DNA of 19,699 bases from Chloroflexota bacterium (lineage in GTDB: Bacteria; Chloroflexota; Anaerolineae; Anaerolineales; Anaerolineaceae), in contig JAEXTI010000575.1 of the NCBI GenBank assembly GCA_023406965.1, positions 1-19,699 of the forward strand, in the 5' to 3' direction. A program made the translations under genes and the position numbers. Below are positions 624 to 19,699 of this stretch, in pieces; position 1 is the first letter of the stretch, and every line of letters starts with the position of its first letter. A model generated the notes under the pieces. It was not told the DNA's origin and made no database searches. It saw only the letters and a list, made by a program, of their open reading frames with translations.

Positions 624-3008
624 CTATTCATAAGCCAGCACTTCCGTAACCGTCAGGCGCACGGCGCGCAGAGCAGGGAAAACGCTGGCTACGATTGAGA
701 TGATGATGACCAGGGCTGCCCAGATGGCGATGCCACCAGGGGCGACCACGGCAGGTAGGGGGTAATCCATGAAAGATAAGCCAATGGTGCGAGCCAGAAG
801 GGCTCCCAGCGGGTAGCTGAGGACGATACTGAGCGCCCAGCTAATCGAGCCGATCAAGAGGCCTTCGAGGATCACGATCCTAAAGACGGCAGCGCTGGAG
901 GCACCGTATGCGCGCATGACTCCAATCTCGCGGGTGCGTTCGATGACATTCAAGCTCATGGTTCCAGCCAATCCCAGCCCGCCGACCGTTGCCAGAATTA
1001 GGGTCATGACCATCAGCAAGGCGACAATAATGCCAAATGCGGCATTGATTTCTTCGCGCTCCTCGGAGATCAGGAAGTTAGAAATTACTTCGATGTCTGC
1101 CTGGTCAAAGCGTGTTTCGATGGCACTGGAGATGGCTCTTTGATCCGCAGTTGTGCCGGGAGGAAAGGTGAGGATGACCGTATTAGCCCGGTTGGGTTCC
1201 CGGACATGGCGAGCGTAGGTGTCATACTCGATGATCGAGAAGTACCCGATGGTGCTATTGCCCATCATGTTCACGATTCCGACAATCGTGTAGGGTACCT
1301 CGCGGCCCTCAATTTTTACAGACATCTGACTACCCAGGCTTAATTCCGGTTCGGCAGCGAGCAGACCCGGGCTGACCAGGATAGCGTTTGTATCCCCGGG
1401 TAGCAGGCCGCGCCCGGCGATGATGGGCGGGTCAAGGAGCTGGGTGCCTGCCGGGGGGGCCATTAAGTATAAGTTATCGCTTTCAGTTCCATCCGGGCGA
1501 ACATACCGCGCCAGGGTGAAACCCCACCCCTCGGCCTCCATAACGCCTGGTACGGCTTTCGCTTCGGATATTAGTTTCTCCACAGGAGCATGTCCTTCGA
1601 TAACCAACCAGGCATCGTATTGCCAGAAATCGAACATCTCATTTAAGGCATCATTCAATGCGGTTTGCAAGTTGATGATCGCCATAAATACAGCCCCGGC
1701 AAAAACCAACGTAGTCAAAGAAAGGATCAGGCGGCTGCGCTTGCGGAAAGGGTTGCGCAGGGCTAGCAAAGTTGCGCGAGTCAAACGGGGGATTCCGGAA
1801 AGGATGCGGTCCATAATCCCGGCGCCTGACCAGACCTGGCTGATGCCGTATTCGCTTAACACTTGAGCAGGTGAAACCTGTGTGCCGGTCAGGATGGCTG
1901 GGGCGGCTGCGATGATAGGAATGATCAGGCCGACACCGAGTTGAAGGAGTAAGCCCTGCAAGGTGAAGTGCACGATCGGTGGGTCGAAATTGATCATCTC
2001 GGCGATAAAGCTGCACAAAGCGCCTGCTCCCAGGAAGCTGAAGGGAACAGCAATCAGGCAGGCGACGGCGCCAAGGAAGATGACCATACAGAAGTACATG
2101 CCGATGATCTGTCCAGATCGGGCCCCCACGGCTTTCATGATCCCGATTTGACGTTCTTGCTGCGCAATGAGCGCGGAGATGATGTTGATCACTAGCAGCG
2201 CGCTGAGCCCCATCGCCATGACGGCAATCAATCCGAGTAAAAGTAGTACGGTGGTGATTATGTAGTTGAGCGGGTGCTCTCCTTTGTTGGGGAGAGTCTT
2301 TTGATACACGGGCAGCCCCTGGCCCTCGATGCGATTGGCAACTTTGTCTGCCAGGGTCGAAACCTGGGAAGAGTCAGACGACTTCAGATATAACTCGTTG
2401 TAGCCCTCTGCTACGCCCATCCAGCGCAAGGTATCCATGCTAACATAGCCATACAGCCAGCCTTCGATGACGGGTGGAATGCGGTACAGGTCGTGGGCGC
2501 GCCCGGTCACCGTCAGCCGGAATAGGCGCCCGTCGGGTGTTTTGACGAGGAGTTCGTCTCCGGCTTTTAAACCGAGTTGATTCAGGGTGGCGCGCTCCAG
2601 GAGCACTTGGCCTTTTTCGGGGGGCCAAACGCCTTCTTGCGGGCGAATATAAAGCAGGCGTTGATCATCGTAATCATTCAACGCGTAGAGGGTCAGGTCT
2701 CGCCAGGTATCTCCGCTGCCGTCCAGGGAGAGTCGCAAGGCCAACGAGCGGCGCCCTTCGGCTTGATCGATACCCCGAATATGTCGGATGCTTTCAACGA
2801 AATCTTCGTCCAGGCTTGGCTCGGTCAGAAGAATGGCATCGGCGGGTTGAATGGCAGCGTATTGGCTGTCGAGAGATTCGGTCAATGCCTGCTGCGCAGC
2901 GGCAATCATGCCGACGGCGAACACGCCAACGGCGATGGAGAGAATCACGAGTGTCGTGCGAGAGCGGTTGTTCCACAGGTCGCGGAGGACTTTGATCCAG
3001 CGAGTCAT
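624..3008 (-). CDS. FtsX-like ABC transporter permease (two-module, MacB/LolE superfamily)
   Basis: This 794-residue permease is the membrane subunit of the export system. An N-terminal TM helix at ~18-38 is followed by a large extracytoplasmic MacB-PCD-like domain (~40-245) and three TM helices (~250-375). A second copy of the layout follows: a TM at ~426-447, a second soluble domain, then three TM helices near the C-terminus. Each FtsX half carries the typical cytoplasmic signature, QERQIGIMKAVGA at ~284-296 and ERTREIGVMRAYGAS in the second half. The ATG overlaps the TGA of the upstream ATPase gene (ATGA, 3005-3008) and has an AAAGGAGG Shine-Dalgarno, so translation is probably coupled. 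The eight-TM tandem form is usual for two-domain permeases in Gram-positive and Chloroflexota genomes, whereas MacB itself has four TMs and a fused ATPase. Substrate cannot be inferred. Confidence 0.92.
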   Translation of the reverse strand: MTRWIKVLRDLWNNRSRTTLVILSIAVGVFAVGMIAAAQQALTESLDSQYAAIQPADAILLTEPSLDEDFVESIRHIRGIDQAEGRRSLALRLSLDGSGDTWRDLTLYALNDYDDQRLLYIRPQEGVWPPEKGQVLLERATLNQLGLKAGDELLVKTPDGRLFRLTVTGRAHDLYRIPPVIEGWLYGYVSMDTLRWMGVAEGYNELYLKSSDSSQVSTLADKVANRIEGQGLPVYQKTLPNKGEHPLNYIITTVLLLLGLIAVMAMGLSALLVINIISALIAQQERQIGIMKAVGARSGQIIGMYFCMVIFLGAVACLIAVPFSFLGAGALCSFIAEMINFDPPIVHFTLQGLLLQLGVGLIIPIIAAAPAILTGTQVSPAQVLSEYGISQVWSGAGIMDRILSGIPRLTRATLLALRNPFRKRSRLILSLTTLVFAGAVFMAIINLQTALNDALNEMFDFWQYDAWLVIEGHAPVEKLISEAKAVPGVMEAEGWGFTLARYVRPDGTESDNLYLMAPPAGTQLLDPPIIAGRGLLPGDTNAILVSPGLLAAEPELSLGSQMSVKIEGREVPYTIVGIVNMMGNSTIGYFSIIEYDTYARHVREPNRANTVILTFPPGTTADQRAISSAIETRFDQADIEVISNFLISEEREEINAAFGIIVALLMVMTLILATVGGLGLAGTMSLNVIERTREIGVMRAYGASSAAVFRIVILEGLLIGSISWALSIVLSYPLGALLARTIGLSFMDYPLPAVVAPGGIAIWAALVIIISIVASVFPALRAVRLTVTEVLAYE

Positions 3009-3709
3009 AGACCTCCTTTTCCATTACCGTTCACGTCGTTGATGATTTCACCGTCTGCAATGTGGAGCTGACGCCCAGCCCGGCGAGCCAGGTCGGGGTC
3101 ATGGGTCACCATGAGCACCGTCTTGCCAAGCCCGGCTAACCGTTCGAACAGAGAAAACACTGAGCCGGCGGTCTTTGAGTCGAGGTTGCCGGTGGGCTCA
3201 TCGGCAGCCAGGATGGGCGGGTCGGTGGCCAGGGCGCGGGCAATGGCAACTCGCTGTTGCTGACCTCCGGAGAGCCGCGCAGGAAGCTTGGACGCGTGCG
3301 ATTCCATTTCCATCAAGCTTAATAGCTCCATAGCTCGTTCGCGACGCTGGCTAGACGGCGGCGTGGCGCAAAAATCCATAGGCAACATAACATTCTCCAC
3401 GGCGGTGAGTGTTGGTAAAAGTTGGAAAAACTGGAATACGACGCCAATGGTTCTCCCGCGCCAGGCAGCCAGACGATTTTCACCCAGCTTTTCGACCATC
3501 GTGCCGCCGATCAAGACCTCACCCTGGGTGGGGCGGTCGAGTCCTGTGATCATGTTGATCAAGGTTGTTTTTCCGCTACCGGATTTTCCGACGATGGCGA
3601 CGAACTCACCCGTTTCTACGTTGAGATTTATTCTCTGAAGGGCCTGAAATTCACCGGCGTCAGTACGATAAGTCTTTGTGACGTTATTCAGGTGGATTAG
3701 CGTGTTCAC
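3005..3709 (-). CDS. ABC transporter ATP-binding protein (MacB/LolD family)
   Basis: This 234-residue ATPase energises the adjacent permease. All nucleotide-binding motifs are present: Walker [10 protein letters not shown] (41-49), Q-loop VFQFFQ (91-96), signature [15 protein letters not shown] (146-160), Walker B ILAADEP (166-172) and the switch histidine in VTHD (His203). The length and the DEPTGNLDS motif are typical of the LolD/MacB/DevA ATPase family. The start is a GTG at 3707-3709 preceded by AAAAGGAGCATT, a strong Shine-Dalgarno that supports this choice over any downstream ATG. It is the first gene of a three-gene minus-strand operon with the permease and adaptor. The preceding regulator gene is separated by a terminator-like hairpin. 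Confidence 0.95.
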
Positions 3710-3841: not shown

Positions 3842-6526
3842 TTAGTGGATCCAGCCTTTCTGTTTTGCCAGCATCACTGCCTGGGTCCGGTTGGCGACGC
3901 TCATTTTACTGAGTATGTTGGCGACGTGCTTTTTTACGGTGTTCAGTGTGAGCACACGCAGTTCGGCTATTTCCTGGTTGCTTAAACCGTCGGCCAGTAA
4001 AGCTAAAATATCCAATTCGCGTCGAGTGAGGGGCAGGTTGTTTGCAGACCGGGTTTCCGGCAGCGCTTCAGCAGTCTCCATGAGTTGGGTTAAAAAATTA
4101 GTATAGGTTGCTGGCGCGTCCAGTTTCGAGCGGTATTTCTTGATTAGAGTAAATAACGGGAGACCCTCATCGACGATTGCGCGTATATAACCGCATTGAG
4201 CGCCCAGGGTTACTGCCTGATTGAGCACCTGGGCTGACTGATTCGACTTGCCGGCCGCGTCTAGTGCAAGGGCCGCGAGGATGTTCGCTTCTAAAAGTGC
4301 GGAGGTGCGCTCACGGGATTCCATGTCGAGACGCAGGTTTTGAATCTCGGTATAAATTGCTGCTGGGTTACGCTGCCCACGGAGCAAATCGGCTCTTAAA
4401 AGGGCTAGTATGGCTATGTCTCGTAGATGGGGATACATACGAGGAACAGATTCCTGTATCCGGTGCAGTTTTATCCAACGATCGGCGGACGCCAGATCTT
4501 TTTGCATCAGATAGGCACGGATACGGTGCACGTTGACAAAAGTGTCGTCCATGAGAGAGACCGTGTTTTCGGCGGTCCGGGCAGCACAATCGAAGTAAGC
4601 CAGGCAAGCCGCCCAGTTTTGTCGCCCTACCTCCAGGTGCGCCAGGGTAAGCCAGCCGTCCATGCTGGCCATTGGTTGCCAAATTTGACAATATTCGACG
4701 CCCTGGTTAGCACAGGCTACGGCCTCATCGAGCCGGTTGAGTTCGCGTAACAGGTCGGCGTAACTGACGAGTGGCATTCCTTGGATGGGGGAGTGCTCAC
4801 CAACGGTTTCCTGGGTGTAGCGAATGGTTCGTTGAAAAATTCGCTCTGCCTTCTCCAGTTCACCGTGGATTTGGAGCTGTTCGCCCAACTGCGTGCCAGC
4901 GGCGATCATCACCAGATGGTTGTCCAGCTTCTCAGACAGGCGGACAGCTTCAGATAGCGAGTCAATGGCCAGGGCAGTTTCGCCTTGGATGACATGGGTG
5001 AGTCCCTGGTTGAAATGAAGTAAATTGTGTAGAAAGTCATCCTGCTCGGCAAGCAAGACGAAGGCTTCATTGAAGTCGTCAATTGAAGGGCTATTACCTT
5101 GAAATGCCCCCATAAGAATGCGCAGTGACAGAAGTTCACCTCGTAAGATGTTTCCATCTTCTCCGACCGGTATTTGCGGTTCGGCTAGCCTGATAGCCTC
5201 TTCTGCCATACCCATGTCAAATAAAATCACACCAGACCAGCCTTTGGCGAAAGCCAGCCGAGGGCGATTGGAGATCGTCCCGTCGGGCAGCCGCTCCAAC
5301 CAATATAAAAGCCGGGCTTGCTCGCCGTGGATGAGCAACTCGCGGTAAATGGTTTCAATCAGAGTGGCAGCCCGATCGTGATCACCTATTCTGAAGGCCA
5401 GACTGATTGCATCTTCGATCAGTCCATTCTGTTCTAACCAGGAACTGGCTGCCCGAAGGAGTGGAACGAATGGCAAGGTTGCGGCCTGGCGGCGCAGAAA
5501 ATCGGTGAACAACGAATGGTAGCGAAACCAATCGCCCTTGGCATTGAGCGGTACCAGGAATAAATTCGCGCGTTCTATGTGGATCAGAGTTTCGGCTGGG
5601 GACATCCCCGGTTGAGTATCCTCGGAGAGGTCGATGGCTTCACGGATAGTTAAAAATTCAGGAGTTGAGTACAAAAACTCGCATAACGATAAGCAGAAAC
5701 GATCCAGCAGTGCGGTTATCAGGAGAAAAGTCTGTGTATAAGGCGATTCGCGGGAAAAGACCTCGCCGGCCAGATAGTCGAATATATGAGCCTGGCCAGC
5801 AGGCAGACTCCAATGTTCGGGTTGGCGGGCAAGGGTCATTCCGGCTAATTGCAAGCCGACCGCCCAACCTTCTGTTGATTGGCTCAACCCGTTGATCTGC
5901 CCAGGGGTAGGGTTAGCTCCTAGCACATCCTCGAGAAATCTTCGGATCTCTTGTTCGGTGAAGCGCAGGTCGGCGGCGGTAATATCCACAACCTGATCTG
6001 TGGCTCGCAAGCGAGGTAGGTTGAGCTTTGGTGAGGCGCGGCTTATCACAACTAAGTGCAAGCAAGGTGGACGATTTTTGAGTATGAAATCAATGATGTA
6101 GTCAATTTCAGGCTCGTCGCATGCGTGAAAGTCGTCCAGAATGACAGAAAAATCAAAAGGAATTTGGCTGAGGTCGTTTATAAAAGTTGAGAGGATGACC
6201 TCCAGCGGGATTCTTTGCCCACTGTGCATTAATGCGAGCGCTGATTGCCCGGCATACTCCTGAACGGATTGTACTGCTTGAATAAGATAAGAAAGGAAGC
6301 GTTCGGGGGCCTGATCGTCTGCATCCAGAGATAACCATGCGCACGGGTGAAGCGAGGTGTGCGCCCAGTCGACAGCCAGGGTGGTTTTGCCAGAACCTGC
6401 AGGCGCGACCACCAGCGTGAGAGCCCGCAGCCAACCTTCCTCCATCTGATCCAACAGGCGAGAACGCTGTACTCGCTTTGGGCGGGCTGGGGGAAGTATG
6501 GTTTTAGTGCGCAGCAATTGGAGCAT
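3842..6526 (-). CDS. MalT-like LuxR-family ATP-dependent transcriptional regulator
   Basis: This 894-residue protein has the STAND/MalT architecture. An N-terminal NTPase has Walker A APAGSGKTT (41-49) and Walker B SVILDDFH (~127-134). A long helical, TPR-like sensor region follows (~330-820). The C-terminal LuxR helix-turn-helix (~834-894) contains LTRRELDILALLADGLSNQE and NTVKKHVANILSKM. In characterised relatives such as E. coli MalT, inducer and ATP binding drive oligomerisation and promoter activation. The start is placed at the ATG at 6524-6526 because MLQLLRTKTILPPARP is the usual opening of this family. An upstream in-frame TTG at 6610 would add 28 residues without support. There is no Shine-Dalgarno before the ATG, but a TATAAT lies six bases upstream. 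Neighbouring sugar genes suggest a carbohydrate signal; the target promoters are unknown. Confidence 0.9.
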   Translation of the reverse strand: MLQLLRTKTILPPARPKRVQRSRLLDQMEEGWLRALTLVVAPAGSGKTTLAVDWAHTSLHPCAWLSLDADDQAPERFLSYLIQAVQSVQEYAGQSALALMHSGQRIPLEVILSTFINDLSQIPFDFSVILDDFHACDEPEIDYIIDFILKNRPPCLHLVVISRASPKLNLPRLRATDQVVDITAADLRFTEQEIRRFLEDVLGANPTPGQINGLSQSTEGWAVGLQLAGMTLARQPEHWSLPAGQAHIFDYLAGEVFSRESPYTQTFLLITALLDRFCLSLCEFLYSTPEFLTIREAIDLSEDTQPGMSPAETLIHIERANLFLVPLNAKGDWFRYHSLFTDFLRRQAATLPFVPLLRAASSWLEQNGLIEDAISLAFRIGDHDRAATLIETIYRELLIHGEQARLLYWLERLPDGTISNRPRLAFAKGWSGVILFDMGMAEEAIRLAEPQIPVGEDGNILRGELLSLRILMGAFQGNSPSIDDFNEAFVLLAEQDDFLHNLLHFNQGLTHVIQGETALAIDSLSEAVRLSEKLDNHLVMIAAGTQLGEQLQIHGELEKAERIFQRTIRYTQETVGEHSPIQGMPLVSYADLLRELNRLDEAVACANQGVEYCQIWQPMASMDGWLTLAHLEVGRQNWAACLAYFDCAARTAENTVSLMDDTFVNVHRIRAYLMQKDLASADRWIKLHRIQESVPRMYPHLRDIAILALLRADLLRGQRNPAAIYTEIQNLRLDMESRERTSALLEANILAALALDAAGKSNQSAQVLNQAVTLGAQCGYIRAIVDEGLPLFTLIKKYRSKLDAPATYTNFLTQLMETAEALPETRSANNLPLTRRELDILALLADGLSNQEIAELRVLTLNTVKKHVANILSKMSVANRTQAVMLAKQKGWIH

Positions 6527-6532
6527 ATAAAG

Positions 6533-6538
6533 ATTATA
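6533..6538 (-). promoter_or_regulatory. Candidate -10 element giving a leaderless regulator mRNA
   Basis: A perfect TATAAT on the minus strand ends six bases before the ATG at 6526. Transcription would therefore be expected to start at or next to the A of the start codon. No Shine-Dalgarno lies upstream of this ATG, which fits a leaderless transcript. A -35 box is not convincing: AGTTCG lies at 17-bp spacing. Confidence 0.45.
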
Positions 6539-6727
6539 TCCCAACAGCAGATTGGCGAACTGATCTATGGTCACTCTTGTCCGCTCGCTCTTTTTGCTGC
6601 TTATAGACAAACCTTGGCTTTTGGCCAGTCGCCGAAAGGTTCTTGATCTCAGTCCGGTCCGATTAAATTTGACCCCTCCATCAAGCCCAAAATCGATGCG
6701 GCCGTTTCTCCTTGCGTTAACTGAGCT

Positions 6728-12232: not shown

Positions 12233-12268
12233 TTCGAGGTTTGCCGTCAGGGGGCGGCAAACCTCGAA
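12233..12268. terminator. Bidirectional terminator between convergent genes
   Basis: A perfect 14-bp stem pairs 12233-12246 (TTCGAGGTTTGCCG) with 12255-12268, enclosing an 8-nt loop TCAGGGGG. It stands between the plus-strand mannosidase (ends 12116) and the minus-strand 24-heme cytochrome (ends 12325). Downstream sequence is moderately T-rich on the plus strand (TGGTTTGAATGGTGGTTTCTTTT) and AT-rich on the minus strand (AAATATTTATC). The rest of the 208-bp gap holds no recognisable gene. Confidence 0.75.
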
Positions 12269-12324: not shown

Positions 12325-14628
12325 TTATTGTACAGGCTCGGTCGGTTCTTCCGTGGGAGCGGGCGTTTCACTCGGCTCTTCGGTCGGGTCAGGTGTTTCG
12401 CTCGGCTCTTCGGTCGGGTCGGGTGTTTCACTCGGCTCTTCGGTTGGATCGGGCGTTTCACTCGGCTCTTCGGTTGGTTCGGGTGTCTCGCTCGGAACGG
12501 GAGTGTCGGAGGGAACCGGAGTAGTAGGAACTGGAGTTTCTGTTGGAGCTACGTACCAGCTACTGGTGTTGTGACATTTTGAACATTGCCCTCGGCTGTG
12601 ATCCGCAGGACGGTCGTGGCAAGATTTGCAGTCGGTGTACCCGGTGTGGTCGAAGACTGCGCTCGCCCATACGCTCGTGTTGTGACATTTGGAGCATTGT
12701 CCAGGCCAGTGCCCGGAAGGCGCAGCATGGCAGTTGGTACAGGTGTCATTGCTTTTGTGTGTGTAAGACGCTGCCCAAGTGGAGGTGTTATGGCAAAGCG
12801 TACAATCACCAGGATAGTGGTTTGTGGGAGTCGTGTGACAGGTTGCGCAGGCTGTGTAGCCGGTATGATCGAAGTGCGCCAGTGCCCAACTGGCAGTGAT
12901 GTGGCACCTATAGCAATCTCCCGCATAGTGACCGCCCGGGGCGGTATGACACTGGCTACAGGTGGACACCCCCGCATGGTTATAGGAGATAGATGACCAG
13001 TTATTAGTATTGTGGCAAGACAGGCAGGCGCCGGGATAGTGATGGCTGGGAACGGCATGACACTGTGTACAGGTTGTGACACCGCCGTGGTTGTAGGAAG
13101 CGTTCCCCCATCCGCTGGTAACATGGCAGGCGGAACAGGCGGCTGGGTAATGCCCTGCAGGTGCTTGATGGCAGGTAGAGCAATCGCTGAAGTTGTGGAA
13201 CATGGCGCCGTCTGTCCAACTGTTGGTACTGTGGCAAGAACTACAGGTGTTCCCACGGTTGCCATGCGGCGCATCGTGACAGGTGGCGCAATCTGAGTGT
13301 TTTCTGGTGTGCGTGAAACGCACTCTGGTCCAGTCAACCGTACCGTGGCATTCGGAGCACTGCCCAACATAATGCGGCATGGGCTTTTCGTCCAAATGGC
13401 ATTGTAAGCAATTGGGGTAAACCTCGTGATTCACATGGACAGGTAGCCAATCGTTCACATCCGTGTGGCAGTTGATGCAGTCGCCAGGATATTTTCCTGC
13501 ATGTTTATCATAACTATGGCAATCCTGACAGTTCTCGACGCGCAGGCAAGTTTCATCTTGTTTAACTTTGATTATCGCATCGTAGTTGCCGTTGATATGA
13601 CAGCTATTACAGGTGCTTAAGTGGTGGTCGTATGTGTAATCCTCCCAGCTTTCAATGCTGGTATGACATCCAATACAGTCTCCGGGGTAGTGAAGCTGCG
13701 TTGAAGAAGCGGGCTTGGCGTTGGTGTTCTTCCAAATGACATTGCGCACAAAGCGAGGCGTTTCATCCGCCACTGCCTCCTGCGCTGGGAGATCGCCGGC
13801 ATGGCAGGAGATGCATTCTCTTACTCGAGCATGGTCGTAGATAATATCACTCCACTCAGTATCAAGGTGGCAGGTTGCACAATCGCCTTCGTAATGCAGC
13901 GGGTAGTTTGGGCCGGCGGCTGTGGCCATCGAGATTAAATACTTGGTATCCAGGACAAGCTCATCTTCCAAGGTGTGGCATGAGATGCAATCACTGGGGG
14001 TGTCGGCATACTCGCCGGTTGTGTGACAGGTCTCGCATTCAACCTCTGTATGTGCACCTTCCAGTGGGAAGATACTATGATCGACTTCCTGGCCGAGGAA
14101 GGGGATGGCTTGCGAGAGGATCACCGCCGGGGTTTTGGGTTTTTCTTTGACAATTTTTTGGATTTCCGAAGGAGTAGAGGCAGCTTGTAGCGTGGCGATC
14201 TTATCATGTAAAGATTGTAACGCCTCGTCGGAGATGGTTTCTTCCAGGCCAGATAGTACGATGTCAATCCGAACTAGCATTTTCTCCACTGTATGATACA
14301 GCGCTTCTTTTTGCTCGTTCGGAACCGTTTCAATGTTTCGAATCGATGCTGATAGGCTGGCATCAAACGCTGTGACTGCTCTCTTTAGATGCTGAGGTTT
14401 GCTAAGGGTGAGATCAAGCAGGCGACGTTCGACCAGGTCGAAGCTTCTTTCGGCCCGTCGGGTTGGATCGCCTGTTAACCTAACCTGAGTGTTCTCAGCA
14501 AAAGATTGGATGTCAAAGAAGACGCTTCCTGGACGGAATGGGTAGGTCTCCGCCAGGAAGAGCAGGCCGAGGATCATGAAGATCAGGACTGCGTTTATGG
14601 CCCCAATGATAATCAGTGTTTTCTTCAT
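12325..14628 (-). CDS. Membrane-anchored 24-heme c-type cytochrome with Pro/Thr/Glu-rich tail
   Basis: This 767-residue protein carries 24 CXXCH heme c motifs by direct reading. The order is an N-terminal TM anchor (~2-27); a helical heme-free domain (~35-165) resembling DUF5667-type extracellular helices; a heme-rich region starting with CETCH at ~198; six diheme repeats of 36-37 residues (12586-13245); and a low-complexity tail of SETPDPTEEP repeats. Conserved His residues in the YNHxG and HYPG positions between motifs are likely axial ligands. The start is ATG 14626-14628, preceded by AAGGAAG; an in-frame extension to 14661 would overlap the upstream gene by 29 bases. It follows the 12-heme cytochrome gene by 4 bp and ends the operon. 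The inferred role is long-range electron transfer outside the membrane. The partner acceptor is unknown. Confidence 0.9.
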   Translation of the reverse strand: MKKTLIIIGAINAVLIFMILGLLFLAETYPFRPGSVFFDIQSFAENTQVRLTGDPTRRAERSFDLVERRLLDLTLSKPQHLKRAVTAFDASLSASIRNIETVPNEQKEALYHTVEKMLVRIDIVLSGLEETISDEALQSLHDKIATLQAASTPSEIQKIVKEKPKTPAVILSQAIPFLGQEVDHSIFPLEGAHTEVECETCHTTGEYADTPSDCISCHTLEDELVLDTKYLISMATAAGPNYPLHYEGDCATCHLDTEWSDIIYDHARVRECISCHAGDLPAQEAVADETPRFVRNVIWKNTNAKPASSTQLHYPGDCIGCHTSIESWEDYTYDHHLSTCNSCHINGNYDAIIKVKQDETCLRVENCQDCHSYDKHAGKYPGDCINCHTDVNDWLPVHVNHEVYPNCLQCHLDEKPMPHYVGQCSECHGTVDWTRVRFTHTRKHSDCATCHDAPHGNRGNTCSSCHSTNSWTDGAMFHNFSDCSTCHQAPAGHYPAACSACHVTSGWGNASYNHGGVTTCTQCHAVPSHHYPGACLSCHNTNNWSSISYNHAGVSTCSQCHTAPGGHYAGDCYRCHITASWALAHFDHTGYTACATCHTTPTNHYPGDCTLCHNTSTWAASYTHKSNDTCTNCHAAPSGHWPGQCSKCHNTSVWASAVFDHTGYTDCKSCHDRPADHSRGQCSKCHNTSSWYVAPTETPVPTTPVPSDTPVPSETPEPTEEPSETPDPTEEPSETPDPTEEPSETPDPTEEPSETPAPTEEPTEPVQ
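12361..12490 (-). repeat. 30-bp tandem repeat coding the Pro/Thr/Glu-rich tail
   Basis: About 4.3 near-identical 30-bp units start at 12361, 12391, 12421, 12451 and 12481. The core is GTTTCACTCGGCTCTTCGGT on the plus strand. In frame on the minus strand each unit encodes the decapeptide SETPDPTEEP. Units differ by a few bases, so the array is young and could vary in copy number by slippage without breaking the frame. It is a coding minisatellite, not a CRISPR array: there are no spacers. Confidence 0.9.
12586..13245 (-). repeat. Six tandem diheme protein repeats (36-37 residues each)
   Basis: The six units begin at CSSCH, CSACH, CLSCH, CYRCH, CTLCH and CSKCH. Their lengths are 36, 37, 37, 37, 36 and 37 residues, which sum exactly to the 660 bp. 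The consensus is CxxCHxTxxW, then YNHxG, then CxxCH, then P and HYPG. Each unit carries two heme sites and two extra conserved histidines. A seventh, partial unit (CSKCHNTSSW) follows at 12585, and a looser unit (CSECH) precedes the array. Confidence 0.9.
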
Positions 14629-14632
14629 ATCG

Positions 14633-15877
14633 TTAGTCTTCCTTTCCGGACGGGCTTGCATTGTCCTGATTGGGATCAGTCAACTGATAATTGGATCCGG
14701 CCTGGTTTGGGTTGGGTTCTCCGGTATGAGTATCCATTGACCCAGAGGGTTCAGTGTTCGCATTGTTGCCGGTTTCGTTACCCGTATAATTGCCTGCGTC
14801 ATTACTGCCTTGCCCTTGCCCATCCTCCGGATCGGCCTGTGGTTTAGCTTTGAGCGGTGTTTCGTCTTCTGTGCCGGTGGGGTGGCAATCGGCGCACTGT
14901 TGAATGTCGGTTGTCTCCAGGGAAACATGGGCAGTGACTATTTCTTCGTTTTCATGGCATGAATCGCAGGTGTATTCTGTGTAGGTCGCGAGATGGCATT
15001 CTTCGCAGGTCTCAATGGGTTCATCGCCATGTTCCAGCGCAAAGGTGTGGATCTTCAGTTCTGCGGGAGTCCAGGCGACATCGGTGTGGCAGCGGGCGCA
15101 TTCCAGGCCAAATTGCCCGGCATGGACTTCGGGTTCCTCATGGCAGGAACTGCAACTGGCGCTGGTGCCTACATAATGCTGGTCACTGTGGCACTCGGCG
15201 CATTCGTGATCGGCATGGCCGCCAGACAAGGCGAATTGACTATGATCAAAGCCCTTGACCATGCGATCCTGCCCGTCGTGACATTCCGTACATGCGGAGC
15301 CATATTCTTCGATGTGAGTTGCAAGCGCGTTGTGGTCGTGGCTGGAATGGCAGGTGATGCAATCTGTTTCTTTGGCAAAACTTCCGTCTTCGTCGCTGTG
15401 GCAGGATTGGCAGGTCATCTGTTCGCCATCATAGTCCGCGATATGGCTGGCAAGGCTAAATTCAGCCAGCATGTAATGATCTACATTTTGGAAGGCCAGC
15501 TTAGTTAGGTCGGCTTCCTCACCGTTGTGCTCAGGGTGGCAGGCCTGGCAGCGGGAAACCCCCGGAAGCCGCCCGTGCAGCGAGTTAATATCCTCGCGCT
15601 GGGCGGCAATATCTTTGTGGCAGTCCTGACAGGTACTGTCACTGAGGCAGTGGACGGGCACGTGGCAGTGAGAACAGTCGTTTGAAAGCTCGGCGTGGGA
15701 CGAGACGCCGCCCAGAGGTTGACTCTGATGGGCGGTGGATAATGGCCCCGGGCTCAGTTGGTGGGTTGCTTTGAGGTAGAGAAAACCGCTACATCCAAGC
15801 ACAAACCCGATCACAACCGCGAACCGAATAAAGAACCAGGGTCTCAATAAGAACTTTTTCCACAATTTTGTAATCAT
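14633..15877 (-). CDS. Membrane-anchored 12-heme c-type cytochrome
   Basis: This 414-residue multiheme cytochrome has 12 CXXCH motifs starting at residues 68, 83, 110, 156, 173, 196, 226, 242, 260, 291, 304 and 328. An N-terminal hydrophobic segment (~15-36) anchors it. VLGC at 26-29 is a poor lipobox, so a TM anchor is preferred. Residues ~242-337 are clearly homologous to the pentaheme module of the preceding cytochrome (LECARCHTDVAWTPAE against INCGRCHNTLAWTPAV). The last ~75 residues are a heme-free, Gly/Asn/Pro-rich acidic tail. The ATG at 15875-15877 has a GAGGAG Shine-Dalgarno. The gene lies 62 bp after the 6-heme cytochrome, with an intercistronic hairpin, and 4 bp before the 24-heme gene. 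It probably relays electrons between these two partners. Confidence 0.9.
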   Translation of the reverse strand: MITKLWKKFLLRPWFFIRFAVVIGFVLGCSGFLYLKATHQLSPGPLSTAHQSQPLGGVSSHAELSNDCSHCHVPVHCLSDSTCQDCHKDIAAQREDINSLHGRLPGVSRCQACHPEHNGEEADLTKLAFQNVDHYMLAEFSLASHIADYDGEQMTCQSCHSDEDGSFAKETDCITCHSSHDHNALATHIEEYGSACTECHDGQDRMVKGFDHSQFALSGGHADHECAECHSDQHYVGTSASCSSCHEEPEVHAGQFGLECARCHTDVAWTPAELKIHTFALEHGDEPIETCEECHLATYTEYTCDSCHENEEIVTAHVSLETTDIQQCADCHPTGTEDETPLKAKPQADPEDGQGQGSNDAGNYTGNETGNNANTEPSGSMDTHTGEPNPNQAGSNYQLTDPNQDNASPSGKED

Positions 15878-15902
15878 ACATCTCCTCTCACCGTTCAGAA
15901 AC

Positions 15903-15927
15903 TTGGGGCGTTTTCCGCGCGCCCCAA
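15903..15927 (-). promoter_or_regulatory. Intercistronic hairpin between the 6-heme and 12-heme cytochrome genes
   Basis: TTGGGGCG (15903-15910) pairs perfectly with CGCCCCAA (15920-15927) around a 9-nt loop. Read on the transcribed minus strand it is followed by GTTTCTG, a poor T-tract. It may act as a partial terminator or mRNA-stabilising stem that sets the ratio of bc core to multiheme proteins, rather than as a full stop. The Shine-Dalgarno of the 12-heme gene lies just downstream. Confidence 0.45.
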
Positions 15928-15939
15928 TCTGAACTTAAC

Positions 15940-16875
15940 CTAGGGAATTCCGATTCCCGTTCCAATTTTGTCCATCGATAACTGTAAAGCCCCTGGATCG
16001 GTGGTGGTGCTGGTCTGTTCGGTAGAGGCGGGTTGCACCGGGAATAGTTCCGGGTTTTGATCGCGTAGTTGACGGGCTTCATCCGCAGCGCCGGTGGGGT
16101 GGCAGAGGGCGCATTGGCTGAATTCAAAGATATTTTCGGCGTTGTGAGCGGTGACCATTTCATCATGCTGGTGATCTTCGTGGCAGGCGTAGCAGTCGTA
16201 CTGAACATAGTTGTTGGGGTGGCAGGTCTTGCAATCTACCTGACCGGCTCCGCCATGATCGAGTGCAAAGTTATGGCGAGTAAGAACCGCGGGGGTCCAG
16301 GCCAGGGTGTTATGGCAGCGGCCACAATTGATACCAAATAGCTCAGTGTGCAGCGCCGGTTCTTCGTGACAGTCGGTACACTGATGAGGATCCTCTTCAT
16401 CCTCAGTGGAAAGATACTCCAGGCCACTTTCCACGGCGGGGTCGGAGGGTGAGGAAAAGCCTTTTTTTAGTGCAATCGTTTCGACATCTGCCCAATCGGT
16501 ATGTTGGATGAGGGCCACCAGTTCACTAACCTGGTAATCGTTGAGGTAACCACCTTCGCTGACGTGCCAGGCGGCCATAGCGGTGCCGTGTGTGGCGCGG
16601 GCAATGGTGTTGAATAGCGCATCTTCATCCGCTTCGGCCAGGGCGGGGTTGTTGAGGGGCGGCATCATGCCCAGGCCGGCCCCATCGGCGCCGTGGCAAG
16701 AGGCGCAGTTTTGAACGTATAAATCGATACCCTCCTGTACATATTCGTTGCGTAGATTCTCTTTGGCCTGCGCCATGCGATCTTCTTCCATGTACCCGTA
16801 TATGGGAATGGCGATGACCATAGCCAGGAGGGCTAATAAACTTATCCAGGTGCTTTTTTGCATTAGTTTTGCCAC
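15940..16875 (-). CDS. Hybrid cytochrome c: class I monoheme domain plus pentaheme domain
   Basis: This 311-residue protein stands where the c1/f-type subunit of a bc complex would be expected. An N-terminal TM anchor (~10-28) is followed by a class I cytochrome c domain, with CASCH at 57-61 and the likely axial Met100 in GTAMAAW. A C-terminal pentaheme domain has CXXCH motifs at 166, 184, 215, 228 and 255. The tail (~265-311) is heme-free. The start is the GTG at 16873-16875, with AGGGAG six bases upstream; an ATG at 16863 with GGAG 11 bases upstream is an equally possible start and does not change the mature protein. It begins 10 bp after the Rieske stop. It probably accepts electrons from the Rieske centre and passes them to the multiheme cytochromes downstream. 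Confidence 0.9.
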   Translation of the reverse strand: MAKLMQKSTWISLLALLAMVIAIPIYGYMEEDRMAQAKENLRNEYVQEGIDLYVQNCASCHGADGAGLGMMPPLNNPALAEADEDALFNTIARATHGTAMAAWHVSEGGYLNDYQVSELVALIQHTDWADVETIALKKGFSSPSDPAVESGLEYLSTEDEEDPHQCTDCHEEPALHTELFGINCGRCHNTLAWTPAVLTRHNFALDHGGAGQVDCKTCHPNNYVQYDCYACHEDHQHDEMVTAHNAENIFEFSQCALCHPTGAADEARQLRDQNPELFPVQPASTEQTSTTTDPGALQLSMDKIGTGIGIP

Positions 16876-16885
16876 TCCTTTCTCC

Positions 16886-17395
16886 CTACGCGGGGTATGT
16901 GATGTGTTCGGGCGTGTGGTGCTCGCGGTTTTGGGGAACTGCGGTGTCTACTTTGACCATGCCATCCTCAAAGATGATAGGGAAGGTGTCGAGAGACCGC
17001 GAAACGATCGAGGTTTGATACTCACCATTGTTGTCAAAGCTGGCTGAATGACATGGGCAGAAGAACTTGTTCTTCTCGCCGATCCAATCCACTGTGCAGC
17101 CCAGGTGCGGGCAGCGGCGGTAGATGGCCATAAAGCCGCCGTCTGCGGTGCAGATGAGGAAGAAGTTGCCATCTTCGAATTCGGTGACCGAGCCGGGTGT
17201 GAAGCTGGCAATAGGCCCGGCGGTGATGATGCCACCAAATTCGCCTTCCAGGCTGCGCGAGCGCAGGAACATTACGCCCGCCGCGCCCAGCTCGAGCATC
17301 AAGACTCCGCCCAGAACCTTGAGCGCATTTTGTAGAAAGGCGCGGCGGTGCGGGTCGAATTGGTCTAGTGAAATGGACTGAACATCTTCACTCAT
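16886..17395 (-). CDS. Rieske [2Fe-2S] iron-sulfur protein of a cytochrome bc complex
   Basis: This 169-residue Rieske protein transfers electrons from quinol bound at cytochrome b to the c-type cytochrome. Cluster motifs are CPHLGC (95-100, ligands Cys95 and His97) and CPCHSA (113-118, ligands Cys113 and His116), with Cys100 and Cys115 placed for the usual disulfide. The second motif has Ser-Ala where many bc1 Rieske proteins have Gly-Ser. The N-terminus has a twin-arginine signal (HRRAFLQ at 16-22) before a hydrophobic anchor (~27-44), so TAT export is expected. The start is ATG 17393-17395 with GAGGAG seven bases upstream. A longer frame open to 17668 runs inside the cytochrome b gene and is rejected. 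It lies 14 bp after cytochrome b. Confidence 0.95.
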   Translation of the reverse strand: MSEDVQSISLDQFDPHRRAFLQNALKVLGGVLMLELGAAGVMFLRSRSLEGEFGGIITAGPIASFTPGSVTEFEDGNFFLICTADGGFMAIYRRCPHLGCTVDWIGEKNKFFCPCHSASFDNNGEYQTSIVSRSLDTFPIIFEDGMVKVDTAVPQNREHHTPEHITYPA

Positions 17396-17409
17396 GGTTA
17401 ATCTCCTCG

Positions 17410-18777
17410 CTAAAACGGTAAGACAAGGGCCATGTGCGGCCCGCGGAAGAAATTGCCGATGATGGTGAGCATGACCAGCGCGGTCATGACGAAGACAAAG
17501 ACGCCCAGGAGGGCTTCGCTGTGGCTGGCGCGCTGACCTTTGTGTCGGATGAGCCCGCGGACGAGGAAATAAATCCCGACCAGGGCAGCCAGACTGGCAA
17601 TGAAGGGGATAACGCCCATTGTCCAGGCCCCTGGCACATTGGGCAGCCAGGCGGGGATGTTGAGCCAATACTCATCCACGATGACCATGACAGGAATGAG
17701 GTAAACCGCGATGATCGCGCTGATGGCCGCGGCACGTTTCCCCAAAGTCGAGCGGAAATAGACGCCGATATCTTTTTCGTCGCGGTCGAAGTAAGGGACT
17801 ACGAACAGGGCGGCGCAAAGGATGCCGACCAACCCCAGCGCTGAAAGGGGATGCATGTGCAGAAGCAGTTCTTGCAACCCCACAAAATACCAGGCAGCCT
17901 TGGCGGGATTGGGAGAACTGAGCGGGTTGGCGATGGGACCAAGCGGTGCGGGGGTGGTCATGGCCCAGATGGCGACCACCAGCAGGGTGACTAATCCCGC
18001 GGCGTATTCTACATTGACCAGGTGGGGAATGGTTGTAACGAGTTGAGGTCGTTCATCGTTCTTGGTAATTGGTTGGGAAAGGCCGCCGTTCTTGCGCACT
18101 TTCCAGAAGTGGTAGCCCATGAAAGCCATGAGCAGAGTGGGGATGAAGACAACGTGTAGGGCATAAAAATTACTGAGACCCGATTGACCGACCTGTGGAC
18201 CACCGAGGGCAAAGGTACGGATTTCGTTGCCGATCACCGGAATATAGGCGATCAGGCTGGTGCTGACGGTGATGGCCCAGTAAGATAGTTGGTCCCAGGG
18301 GAGAAGGTAGCCGGTGAAGTTGGCCATGAGGGCCAGAAGGAAGAGAACAACCCCGATGATCCAGTTGACCGTGCGGCCCTGTTTGTAGGAGCCGGTGAAG
18401 AAGACACGCAACAAGTGCAGGAAGGAAGAGATGACCAGGAGGTTCGCCGACCAGTGATGGGCGGCGCGGACGAGCGAACCGAAGGCCACTTCGGTTTCGA
18501 GGGATTGGATGCTGATATACGCATGATCGACGCGGGCGTCGTAGCGGAACATAAGCAGCACACCGGTGAGCGCCAATACCACTGCCAGGACGGCAGAGAT
18601 GCCGCCCAGACCCCAGGTGTAAGTGAGGCGTATGGCCTGGACGGGGACGCGAACGGGGTGCAGGTGCAGGATGAGGCTGTTGGTCACCTGCTGCAGGCGG
18701 CTTTGCTCACCAGAAACATTTTTTCCGGCAGCAGCCGCATGGCGGCGAAAGCGTAAGAGGGGGGTTTGAGTGGCCAT
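17410..18777 (-). CDS. Cytochrome b of a quinol-oxidising bc complex (full-length, b6 and subunit IV parts fused)
   Basis: This 455-residue diheme cytochrome b forms the quinol-oxidising membrane core. Heme ligands are His107 and His121 in helix B (13 residues between) and His208 and His223 in helix D (14 between, the b6-type spacing). The Qo-site region is NPAKAAWYFVGLQELL at ~290-305; the usual PEWY tetrapeptide is replaced by AAWY. The first half ends near residue 235 and the C-terminal part (~255-455) corresponds to subunit IV plus an extra C-terminal helix ending FFRGPHM. The start is ATG 18777, preceded by AAGGA at six bases; an upstream in-frame codon at 18801 lacks such a site. It is the first gene of the five-gene respiratory operon and starts 29 bp after the FG-GAP gene. 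Confidence 0.95.
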   Translation of the reverse strand: MATQTPLLRFRRHAAAAGKNVSGEQSRLQQVTNSLILHLHPVRVPVQAIRLTYTWGLGGISAVLAVVLALTGVLLMFRYDARVDHAYISIQSLETEVAFGSLVRAAHHWSANLLVISSFLHLLRVFFTGSYKQGRTVNWIIGVVLFLLALMANFTGYLLPWDQLSYWAITVSTSLIAYIPVIGNEIRTFALGGPQVGQSGLSNFYALHVVFIPTLLMAFMGYHFWKVRKNGGLSQPITKNDERPQLVTTIPHLVNVEYAAGLVTLLVVAIWAMTTPAPLGPIANPLSSPNPAKAAWYFVGLQELLLHMHPLSALGLVGILCAALFVVPYFDRDEKDIGVYFRSTLGKRAAAISAIIAVYLIPVMVIVDEYWLNIPAWLPNVPGAWTMGVIPFIASLAALVGIYFLVRGLIRHKGQRASHSEALLGVFVFVMTALVMLTIIGNFFRGPHMALVLPF

Positions 18778-18806: not shown

Positions 18807-19699
18807 CTAACGAATGATGGCAGGTAGATATATGTGGAAATCGAGTACGGGGAGGTCGCCTGTTGCCATGCCGTGAAAGACGAAAGCTGCGCCCATTTTC
18901 GTCTTCTGGTCCCTCATGTAAGTGGGCGCTCCGGCGATCAAGTCATATCGACCATCGGCGTTGACATCTCCTGCGCCGGACAGGGAGACGCCGAAGTCTG
19001 TGTCACTTTTGTTCCCCCCGGCGGACCATGTAGGCGCCAGGCTAGGGCCGGCTGAACTGCCGTTGTAGACAAAAACCATTCCTTCGAAGGATTGATCGCC
19101 GTCGTGGTTTGGAGCGCCAACACCCACATCATCGTACCCGTCCATATTGACATCGCCCAAACCTGCCACCGCTGAGCCAAATCCTGAACTGGTTTGGCTG
19201 CTGGTGACGAACCAGCCGTATGTGGTGCTCAAGCTCCCCGAACTGTTGAAAAACAGGTAAGCTGCGCCTACATCGGCTTGCCCTCCGTCGTAACCGTTCG
19301 CGCCAACAATCAGATCGACGTAGCCGTTGCCGTCCACATCTCCAGCGCCATCGATTGAACTTCCGAAACGCATGTTCGGCTGGGAGCCTTCCACGGTCCA
19401 GTCCGGGGCGTCGAGAGCGGGCCCGGTGGCCGAACCTTTGAAAACCCACACCTGACCGGAATCGATGCGAGGAAGATCGGATGGAGGCAAGGGGGGGAGG
19501 TCGACTGTGGGGGCCGAAATGGCGATGTCGGCGTAACCATCGTGGTTGAGATCGCCAATTCCGGCCACGTCGTAGCCGAATTGGGCTGAAACCAGATCGC
19601 TCTGCATCATCCATGCGGGAGTAGTTTCGAGCCCGGAGGCAGAGCCTAAGAAAAGGTAGGCCGCGCCCTCGTTGATTTGCGGCTCGCTGTAATGAATGG
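18807..19699 (-). CDS. Secreted FG-GAP (integrin alpha-type) repeat protein, partial, N-terminus beyond right edge
   Basis: The frame stays open to the right edge, so only the last ~297 residues are seen. Four FG-GAP beta-propeller repeats are visible, each with a calcium-loop-like D-x-N/D-x-D-G motif: GDLNHDGYADI, GDVDGNGYVDL, GDVNMDGYDDV and GDVNADGRYDL. Each is preceded by an FG(Y/S/V) opening, and they are followed by VFKG/LFF/VYNG/VFHG strands. The tail before the first repeat (EGAAYLFLGSASG) belongs to yet another unit. The protein ends FHIYLPAIIR, a short hydrophobic Tyr-Leu-Pro tail with terminal Arg that recurs on secreted Chloroflexota proteins and may be a sorting or anchoring signal. 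It is probably extracellular and may bind a surface or polymer. It lies 29 bp upstream of cytochrome b on the same strand, with no clear terminator between. Confidence 0.85.
   Translation of the reverse strand, partial: IHYSEPQINEGAAYLFLGSASGLETTPAWMMQSDLVSAQFGYDVAGIGDLNHDGYADIAISAPTVDLPPLPPSDLPRIDSGQVWVFKGSATGPALDAPDWTVEGSQPNMRFGSSIDGAGDVDGNGYVDLIVGANGYDGGQADVGAAYLFFNSSGSLSTTYGWFVTSSQTSSGFGSAVAGLGDVNMDGYDDVGVGAPNHDGDQSFEGMVFVYNGSSAGPSLAPTWSAGGNKSDTDFGVSLSGAGDVNADGRYDLIAGAPTYMRDQKTKMGAAFVFHGMATGDLPVLDFHIYLPAIIR

Follow-up and report, generated by a model that had tools for sequence, protein, structure and literature searches.

How might a quinol-oxidizing cytochrome bc core hand its electrons to a long chain of hemes? 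The question is raised by an operon on contig JAEXTI010000575.1 of a Chloroflexota bacterium, analyzed here as a window of 19,699 bases (54% GC), in which five minus-strand genes lie head to tail between positions 12325 and 18777 and encode cytochrome b, a Rieske protein and then cytochromes with 6, 12 and 24 hemes (Cyt6, Cyt12 and Cyt24; Table 1). A sequence-only reading of this DNA had seen in the cluster an undescribed respiratory module, with anchored multiheme cytochromes leading electrons away from the bc core. Its gaps between the five genes (14, 10, 62 and 4 bp along the operon) are correct, although a Cyt6 start at ATG 16863, which homologues make more likely than GTG 16875, would put 22 bp rather than 10 between the Rieske and Cyt6 genes. 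Counting CXXCH motifs confirms the three heme numbers (24 + 12 + 6 = 42, with zero extra CX3-4CH motifs), and the N-terminal hydrophobic segment that can be read from the sequence of all three cytochromes fits their description as anchored. Pfam matches along the operon comprise those of cytochrome b and the Rieske protein (Table 1), PF13442 and multiheme families. Two features had been missed: the operon extends upstream, where a gene for an FG-GAP protein ends at 18807, 29 bp ahead of the cytochrome b gene, and Cyt6 is made of one class I heme fused to a pentaheme module.

Conservation of the cluster was followed with the hexaheme protein. A protein search gave 96 matches at E <= 0.001 (for 90 of these, E was below 1e-47), and a profile search of genome contigs with the hexaheme alignment A1 gave 26 loci. 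Thirteen of these carry the hexaheme (L001-L013), and every one of their titles names Chloroflexi or one of its subgroups. In six the title gives Anaerolineaceae, Anaerolineales or Anaerolineae, L004 and L011 belong to the same class as one of these six, and the other five are titled Chloroflexi only. L014 and L015 are Anaerolineae loci with 12-heme and larger cytochrome genes and no hexaheme, L014 being too short upstream to judge; among the 11 weaker loci, L016 is represented by its list of open reading frames (ORFs) only, and L017-L026, weak matches from other phyla, lie outside the annotation. The order cytochrome b, Rieske, hexaheme, whose conservation in relatives had been proposed as a check, is kept in all 13 hexaheme loci (the L013 cytochrome b is cut by the contig end). 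The Cyt12 gene directly follows the hexaheme gene in eight of the 13 (that of L003 is cut) and precedes cytochrome b in L011, and a cytochrome of 22-29 hemes lies downstream in 12 (cut at 23 hemes in L009), the L003 contig ending before this point.

What ties the bc core to the heme chain is Cyt6, which by its sequence is a chimera of a bc complex c subunit and a pentaheme module. Residues 24-151 share 53% identity (E 1e-49) with the first domain of a triheme protein encoded at locus L075, and residues 166-266 share 48.5% identity (E 4e-30) with the last five hemes of Cyt12, where the heme spacings are 18, 31, 13 and 24 as against 18, 31, 13 and 27 in Cyt6. Cross matches, in contrast, are poor (first half against Cyt12, E 0.18; second half against the triheme protein, E 0.46). 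From the hexaheme alignment, two half-models (N and C) were made and searched against the ORFs collected. Of the 81 rows matched, 28 have just the first half, 35 just the second and 18 both. The first-half-only rows (20 distinct) have three CXXCH motifs each, the second-half-only rows are 7- to 44-heme ORFs, some cut at contig ends, and both halves occur together only in hexahemes (14 distinct rows). The class I half is the c-type subunit encoded with cytochrome b and Rieske, and the two triheme subunits scanned resemble strings of class I cytochrome c domains. This domain also matches actinobacterial QcrC (9wcx_U, E 1.4e-7). QcrC has two class I hemes, whereas Cyt6 has one and a pentaheme tail. 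By homology, cytochrome b, the Rieske protein and the class I half of Cyt6 prove to be relatives of the ordinary Anaerolineae bc complex, in which cytochrome b and Rieske genes accompany one for a triheme c.

Against NCBIfam, the window cytochrome b matches best the ExtP model (267 bits, cut-off 290) and, more weakly, ExtQ (46 bits, cut-off 150), both under their cut-offs; these models take their names from a Geobacter selenite/tellurite operon. The heme b histidines of helices B and D are present, in an alignment inspected by eye, in the 13 full-length rows of 14 (L013 is incomplete). At the Qo site the window protein has KAAWY in place of PEWY, and KAAW[YF] occurs in 14/14 rows from loci that join the bc core to the hexaheme, the merged form. 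This motif was rejected as a hallmark of the merged form: AAWY is also found in near triheme-type complexes, with KAPWY in deeper triheme-type ones. The Rieske protein keeps CPHLGC and CPCH in 14/14 merged rows. Ser and Tyr residues in the Rieske motif raise its redox potential, and the window motif, CPCHSASF, is without them; together with the Qo Ala this may suit a menaquinol system but makes electron bifurcation uncertain. The triheme-type Rieske proteins have CTHLGC in every row that matches the pattern, where L001-L013 and the window have CPHLGC, a difference that may tune the potential. An ordinary cytochrome c1 encoded elsewhere had been named as a partner that would speak against a link to the multihemes; PF02167 has no match in the 12 genomes behind L001, L002 and L004-L013 (all counts of relatives' genomes below refer to these 12; that of L003 is not included), nor among the Pfam matches of the window proteins.

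Cyt12 has 1570 homologues at E <= 0.001 and only a weak DmsE match in NCBIfam, which has no match for Cyt24 and no Ext model for Cyt6. For the Cyt24 profile (alignment A2, 14 sequences) the closest solved structure is 3ov0, a 'cytochrome c family protein' (E 9.8e-15, residues 19-317 of 318), which we take to be the Geobacter 12-heme 'nanowire' cytochrome; 3ov0 is shorter, whereas Cyt24 is anchored and carries 24 hemes (22-29 in relatives). The Cyt24 ORF has an additional in-frame ATG upstream at 14661. In L004 (14530-16758) and L005 (14599-16692), a second large cytochrome, with 26 and 24 hemes, respectively, and no Pro/Thr/Glu-rich tail, follows the first.

Upstream of the bc core, the FG-GAP gene recurs in 11 of the 12 relatives' loci with upstream DNA (it is absent from L008), directly before cytochrome b in nine. 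Relatives of an exported protein of about 1100 residues are encoded upstream in 11/11 merged loci with enough DNA, partially so in L003, L011 and L012. NCBIfam assigns this protein to the choice-of-anchor O family (688 bits in L001, cut-off 125; L015 also), which is rare, occurring in 3/100 sampled genomes of the class, one of them G003, the genome of L004. Compared with solved structures it gave nothing better than about E 1, its name returned nothing in the literature searched, and its AlphaFold2 (AF2) model, with a predicted local distance difference test score (pLDDT) of 53, was too weak to use. The operon gives a setting for such proteins. A short LP motif (e.g. HIYLPAIIR) stands at the C-terminus of 10/13 choice-of-anchor O rows and 14/16 FG-GAP rows from L001-L015, L065 and the window, and is perhaps an uncharacterized sorting tail.

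How did bc core and heme chain come together? In a survey of 396 genomes of the class, in which up to six candidates were scored per genome so that counts are lower bounds, at least 84 had a match and at least four a full hexaheme (G003, G007, G009 and G010). A pentaheme-module match in a non-hexaheme protein was found in at least 44 genomes, these four included, and at least 41 have a first-half match that extends to residue 130 or further in a different protein; at least 15 genomes without a hexaheme carry both modules, apart. Separate modules can also be seen as gene clusters: L062 and L075-L084 encode cytochrome b, Rieske and a triheme protein (no Rieske ORF was called in L080, and a 7-heme ORF lies near that of L083), while L065 encodes choice-of-anchor O, FG-GAP, Cyt12 and a 27-heme cytochrome with no bc core, and L015 a similar set. 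In L015 (8201-13300) and L068 (4466-10954), which have no bc core, cytochromes of 37 and 44 hemes lie near the Cyt12 gene with at least one ORF between.

Trees were calculated after removal of duplicates of loci L027-L056, with pentaheme rows under 70 bits left out of the pentaheme tree. The joint tree combines cytochrome b, the Rieske protein and the class I domain in 24 rows (L080 was dropped for want of a Rieske ORF). In it the 14 merged rows form one clade (100/100), the merged form is also one clade in the cytochrome b tree (82/86), and several origins of the merged form are unsupported. The triheme form is ancestral when the joint tree is rooted with the five deeper triheme rows, a root taken from the cytochrome b tree with its two long-branched outgroup rows. 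A bc core and a surface heme module that had been separate would then have been merged, probably once, by placement of a pentaheme on the c subunit.

Taken together, we consider it reasonably probable that the operon encodes a Rieske/cytochrome b quinol-oxidizing complex in which the c1-like subunit, through rebuilding, now connects to a heme wire that crosses the cell wall, probably for extracellular electron transfer. Here, quinol, probably menaquinol, would be oxidized at the Qo site by cytochrome b and Rieske, with one electron returning through the hemes b and the other passing via Rieske to the class I heme of Cyt6, then to its pentaheme, to Cyt12 and to Cyt24. Cyt24 would cross the cell wall, and the choice-of-anchor O and FG-GAP proteins would sit outside, holding or contacting the acceptor, be it a mineral, an electrode, a humic substance or a partner cell. 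More tentatively, and with confidence somewhat short of even, the bc complex may have become a one-piece extracellular respiratory machine, in cells that lack an outer membrane, that passes electrons out of the quinone pool with neither a soluble carrier nor a porin, the docking module of the heme wire being on its c1-like subunit and its outer contact being made by choice-of-anchor O and FG-GAP proteins. If true, Anaerolineae would have in it a way to respire extracellularly. The operon offers a path between quinone and cell surface that can be tested, and its domain swap is an evolutionary step joining an energy-conserving complex to a heme chain.

Several points weigh against this proposal. 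The surface location of the operon proteins is something we infer from their sequences, and the outward direction of electron flow is a proposal. Electron bifurcation is not certain, since Ala replaces the Glu of PEWY. Cyt12 is not in the DNA seen in 4/13 loci (L009, L010, L012 and L013), and with its position before cytochrome b in a fifth, the rise in heme number along the operon noted earlier is no general rule. The AF2 model of Cyt6 has a mean pLDDT of 64 and is good for the class I half only (residues 162-234 are below 50), and the pentaheme also weakly matches Cyt24 repeats (E 5e-9). Descent of this pentaheme from the neighboring Cyt12 is not demonstrated by the pentaheme tree: the C-terminal half of Cyt6 needs 2 changes, and one clade is not rejected (approximately unbiased test, p 0.249). 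Left unrooted, the joint tree does no more than separate merged rows from triheme rows, and the ancestral bc form depends on the root. G001 and G010, which have the operon, also hold a separate cytochrome b-Rieske-triheme complex (L062 and L077), against a reading of the multihemes as sole partner. Finally, a COX1 heme-copper oxidase is encoded in 9/12 relatives' genomes.

Among alternatives, we judge it unlikely that the multihemes stay inside, feeding a wall-side reductase for nitrite, nitrous oxide, sulfur compounds or selenite/tellurite, or storing electrons. The selenite/tellurite operon behind the best NCBIfam models of cytochrome b points this way, as does a proposed nitrite-reducing octaheme that the part of the source seen describes in an anammox multiheme bc complex (PMC12954380). 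However, the identified cluster genes include no reductase, the flanking genes being mostly without annotation, and the many repeats, anchors, Pro/Thr/Glu-rich tails and exported-looking partners suit wall crossing. Quite improbable is inward flow, with electrons drawn from Fe(II), from a cathode or from a partner and pushed uphill to quinone by way of the bc core: in principle the same hardware could reverse, and the Chloroflexi isolate Ardenticatena is described, in the portion of the report seen, as capable of anodic and cathodic transfer (PMC5808234), but the sugar kinase, GH38 and MFS genes of the window suggest a heterotroph.

That the operon is a complex III for oxygen respiration, its hemes serving for buffering, we regard as very improbable. 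The COX1 genomes would fit it, and so would the distribution of PF00033, found in all 12 relatives' genomes and in six of them matched solely by the merged cytochrome b. On the other hand, G007 has the operon but neither a second PF00033 match nor one to COX1 (its completeness is not stated), and triheme bc complexes occur without multihemes. NrfD-type proteins are encoded in 12/12 relatives' genomes, and in G003 one lies in a cluster with QrcA-, QrcB- and DsrP-like proteins and mono- and pentaheme cytochromes, COX1/CoxB being elsewhere. From what we take to be the make-up of alternative complex III, we infer that this cluster is one; G002 shows the same ORF pattern (gene pattern only), so oxygen respiration need not use the operon in these genomes. 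Chance neighborhood of a functionally unlinked bc core and multihemes is nearly refuted by the conserved order, the small gaps and the chimeric Cyt6, although members of the class do carry the two modules separately.

Extracellular electron transfer through the heme chain can be set beside known systems, the sources for which were seen in part. In Geobacter, extHIJKLMNOPQS (GSU2940-GSU2930) is a conserved cluster encoding the cytochrome b ExtP, the Rieske protein ExtO and 10-, 12- and 5-heme cytochromes (PMC2825233, PMC5877670). The likeness lies in a cytochrome b, a Rieske protein and several large multihemes in one cluster, and in the matches of the window cytochrome b to ExtP and, in its second part, to ExtQ. 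In contrast to ext, with its outer-membrane porin ExtI and a cytochrome b split into ExtP and ExtQ, the window has a one-chain cytochrome b scoring under the curated cut-offs, the class I/pentaheme chimera, the 24-heme protein, FG-GAP/choice-of-anchor O proteins and no beta-barrel porin among its genes scanned with Pfam and NCBIfam (relatives were not searched for porins). In the anammox complexes Kuste4569-4574, for which subunit comigration is reported, and Kustd1480-1485, a hexa- or octaheme c subunit replaces cytochrome f beside a b6f-like cytochrome b (PMC12954380); they differ in their putative NAD(P) oxidoreductase subunits and in an HAO-like octaheme that one of them carries. The window shows neither feature, and neighbor genes in relatives are only partly annotated. 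The Methanoperedens cluster MPEBLZ_00816-00823 joins Rieske/cytochrome b to two extra pentaheme cytochromes, but is archaeal, proposed for nitrate reduction and, as described, without a large heme wire (PMC4683180).

Within the phylum, reports place Anaerolineae on anodes and in iron-reducing settings, and the group carries large multiheme cytochromes; a bioanode study describes variable heme numbers for those of Anaerolineales and found no porin-cytochrome complex, which it explains by the absence of a Gram-negative envelope (PMC7399161). RBG-9 has a 24-heme cytochrome (PMC3971608). These large cytochromes may overlap the Cyt24 family, and in the parts seen of both papers they are not linked to a bc operon. 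No bc-multiheme operon or class I/pentaheme chimera in Chloroflexota was found in the parts seen of the literature searched, which also includes PMC10052568, PMC6295460, PMC7382037, PMC9671151 and PMC10989804 and has subscription papers and preprints outside its scope. Of the sequence-only reading, the conserved cluster stands, with its bc core tied to the multihemes via the chimeric hexaheme; 'undescribed' does not hold for the kind of module, given the Geobacter and anammox precedents. The operon is real and conserved, and this Chloroflexota variant, with its domain-swapped connector and partner proteins, looks new.

Table 1. Features of the operon and its flanks (window positions)
Feature	Position	Strand	Description
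Possible operon terminator	12233..12268	-	14-bp stem just past the 24-heme gene, weak T tail
24-heme Cyt24	12325..14628	-	24 CXXCH, ATG start; N-terminal hydrophobic anchor, heme-free region, heme region, Pro/Thr/Glu-rich tail
Cyt24 Pro/Thr/Glu-rich C-terminal tail	12328..12540	-	From sequence and alignment
Cyt24 heme region	12571..14037	-	Last 14 hemes alternate 15 and 21-22 residue spacing
Dodecaheme Cyt12	14633..15877	-	12 CXXCH; PF14522, PF14537, PF22113; N-terminal hydrophobic anchor
Cyt12 pentaheme tail, residues 242-339	14861..15154	-	Common to Cyt6
Hexaheme Cyt6	15940..16875	-	Membrane segment at the N-terminus, then class I cytochrome c and a pentaheme tail; ATG 16863 is the likely start
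Cyt6 half 2, residues 160-266	16078..16398	-	Pentaheme module; homologue of Cyt12 C-terminal end
Cyt6 half 1, residues 1-151	16423..16875	-	Membrane segment and class I heme domain; triheme c subunit homologue
Rieske [2Fe-2S] protein, 169 residues	16886..17395	-	PF00355 5.3e-10; CPHLGC ... CPCHSASF
Cytochrome b, 455 residues	17410..18777	-	PF00033 6.6e-46; b6 part fused to subunit-IV-like part, single chain
FG-GAP beta-propeller gene, 3' part cut by window end	18807..19697	-	PF01839 2.7e-26; protein ends ...FHIYLPAIIR

Scans of the stretch for transcription signals gave 10 terminator-like sites against 6.9 expected, the stem at 12233-12268 being the longest by far, and four promoter sites against 4.5 expected, which is chance level. 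In L001, a regulator with BTAD and GGDEF domains (110-1456; scanned in this locus) runs divergently from the operon, whose expression it could control; similar-looking ORFs occur in L002 and L004-L006. L011 encodes two further multiheme proteins downstream of the operon (12553-16279), one with 7 hemes and one with 8 hemes and a PF11783 Cytochrome_cB domain; they may form a second cytochrome system linked to quinone. The rest of the window encodes an ABC transporter pair on the minus strand (624-3709), with a LolD-like ATPase and an ADOP/MacB-like permease, a MalT-like LuxR-family regulator of 922 residues (3842-6610) and, between 6728 and 12116, an MFS transporter (minus) followed by an FGGY kinase and a GH38 alpha-mannosidase (plus), the gene for the latter being convergent with the cytochrome operon.

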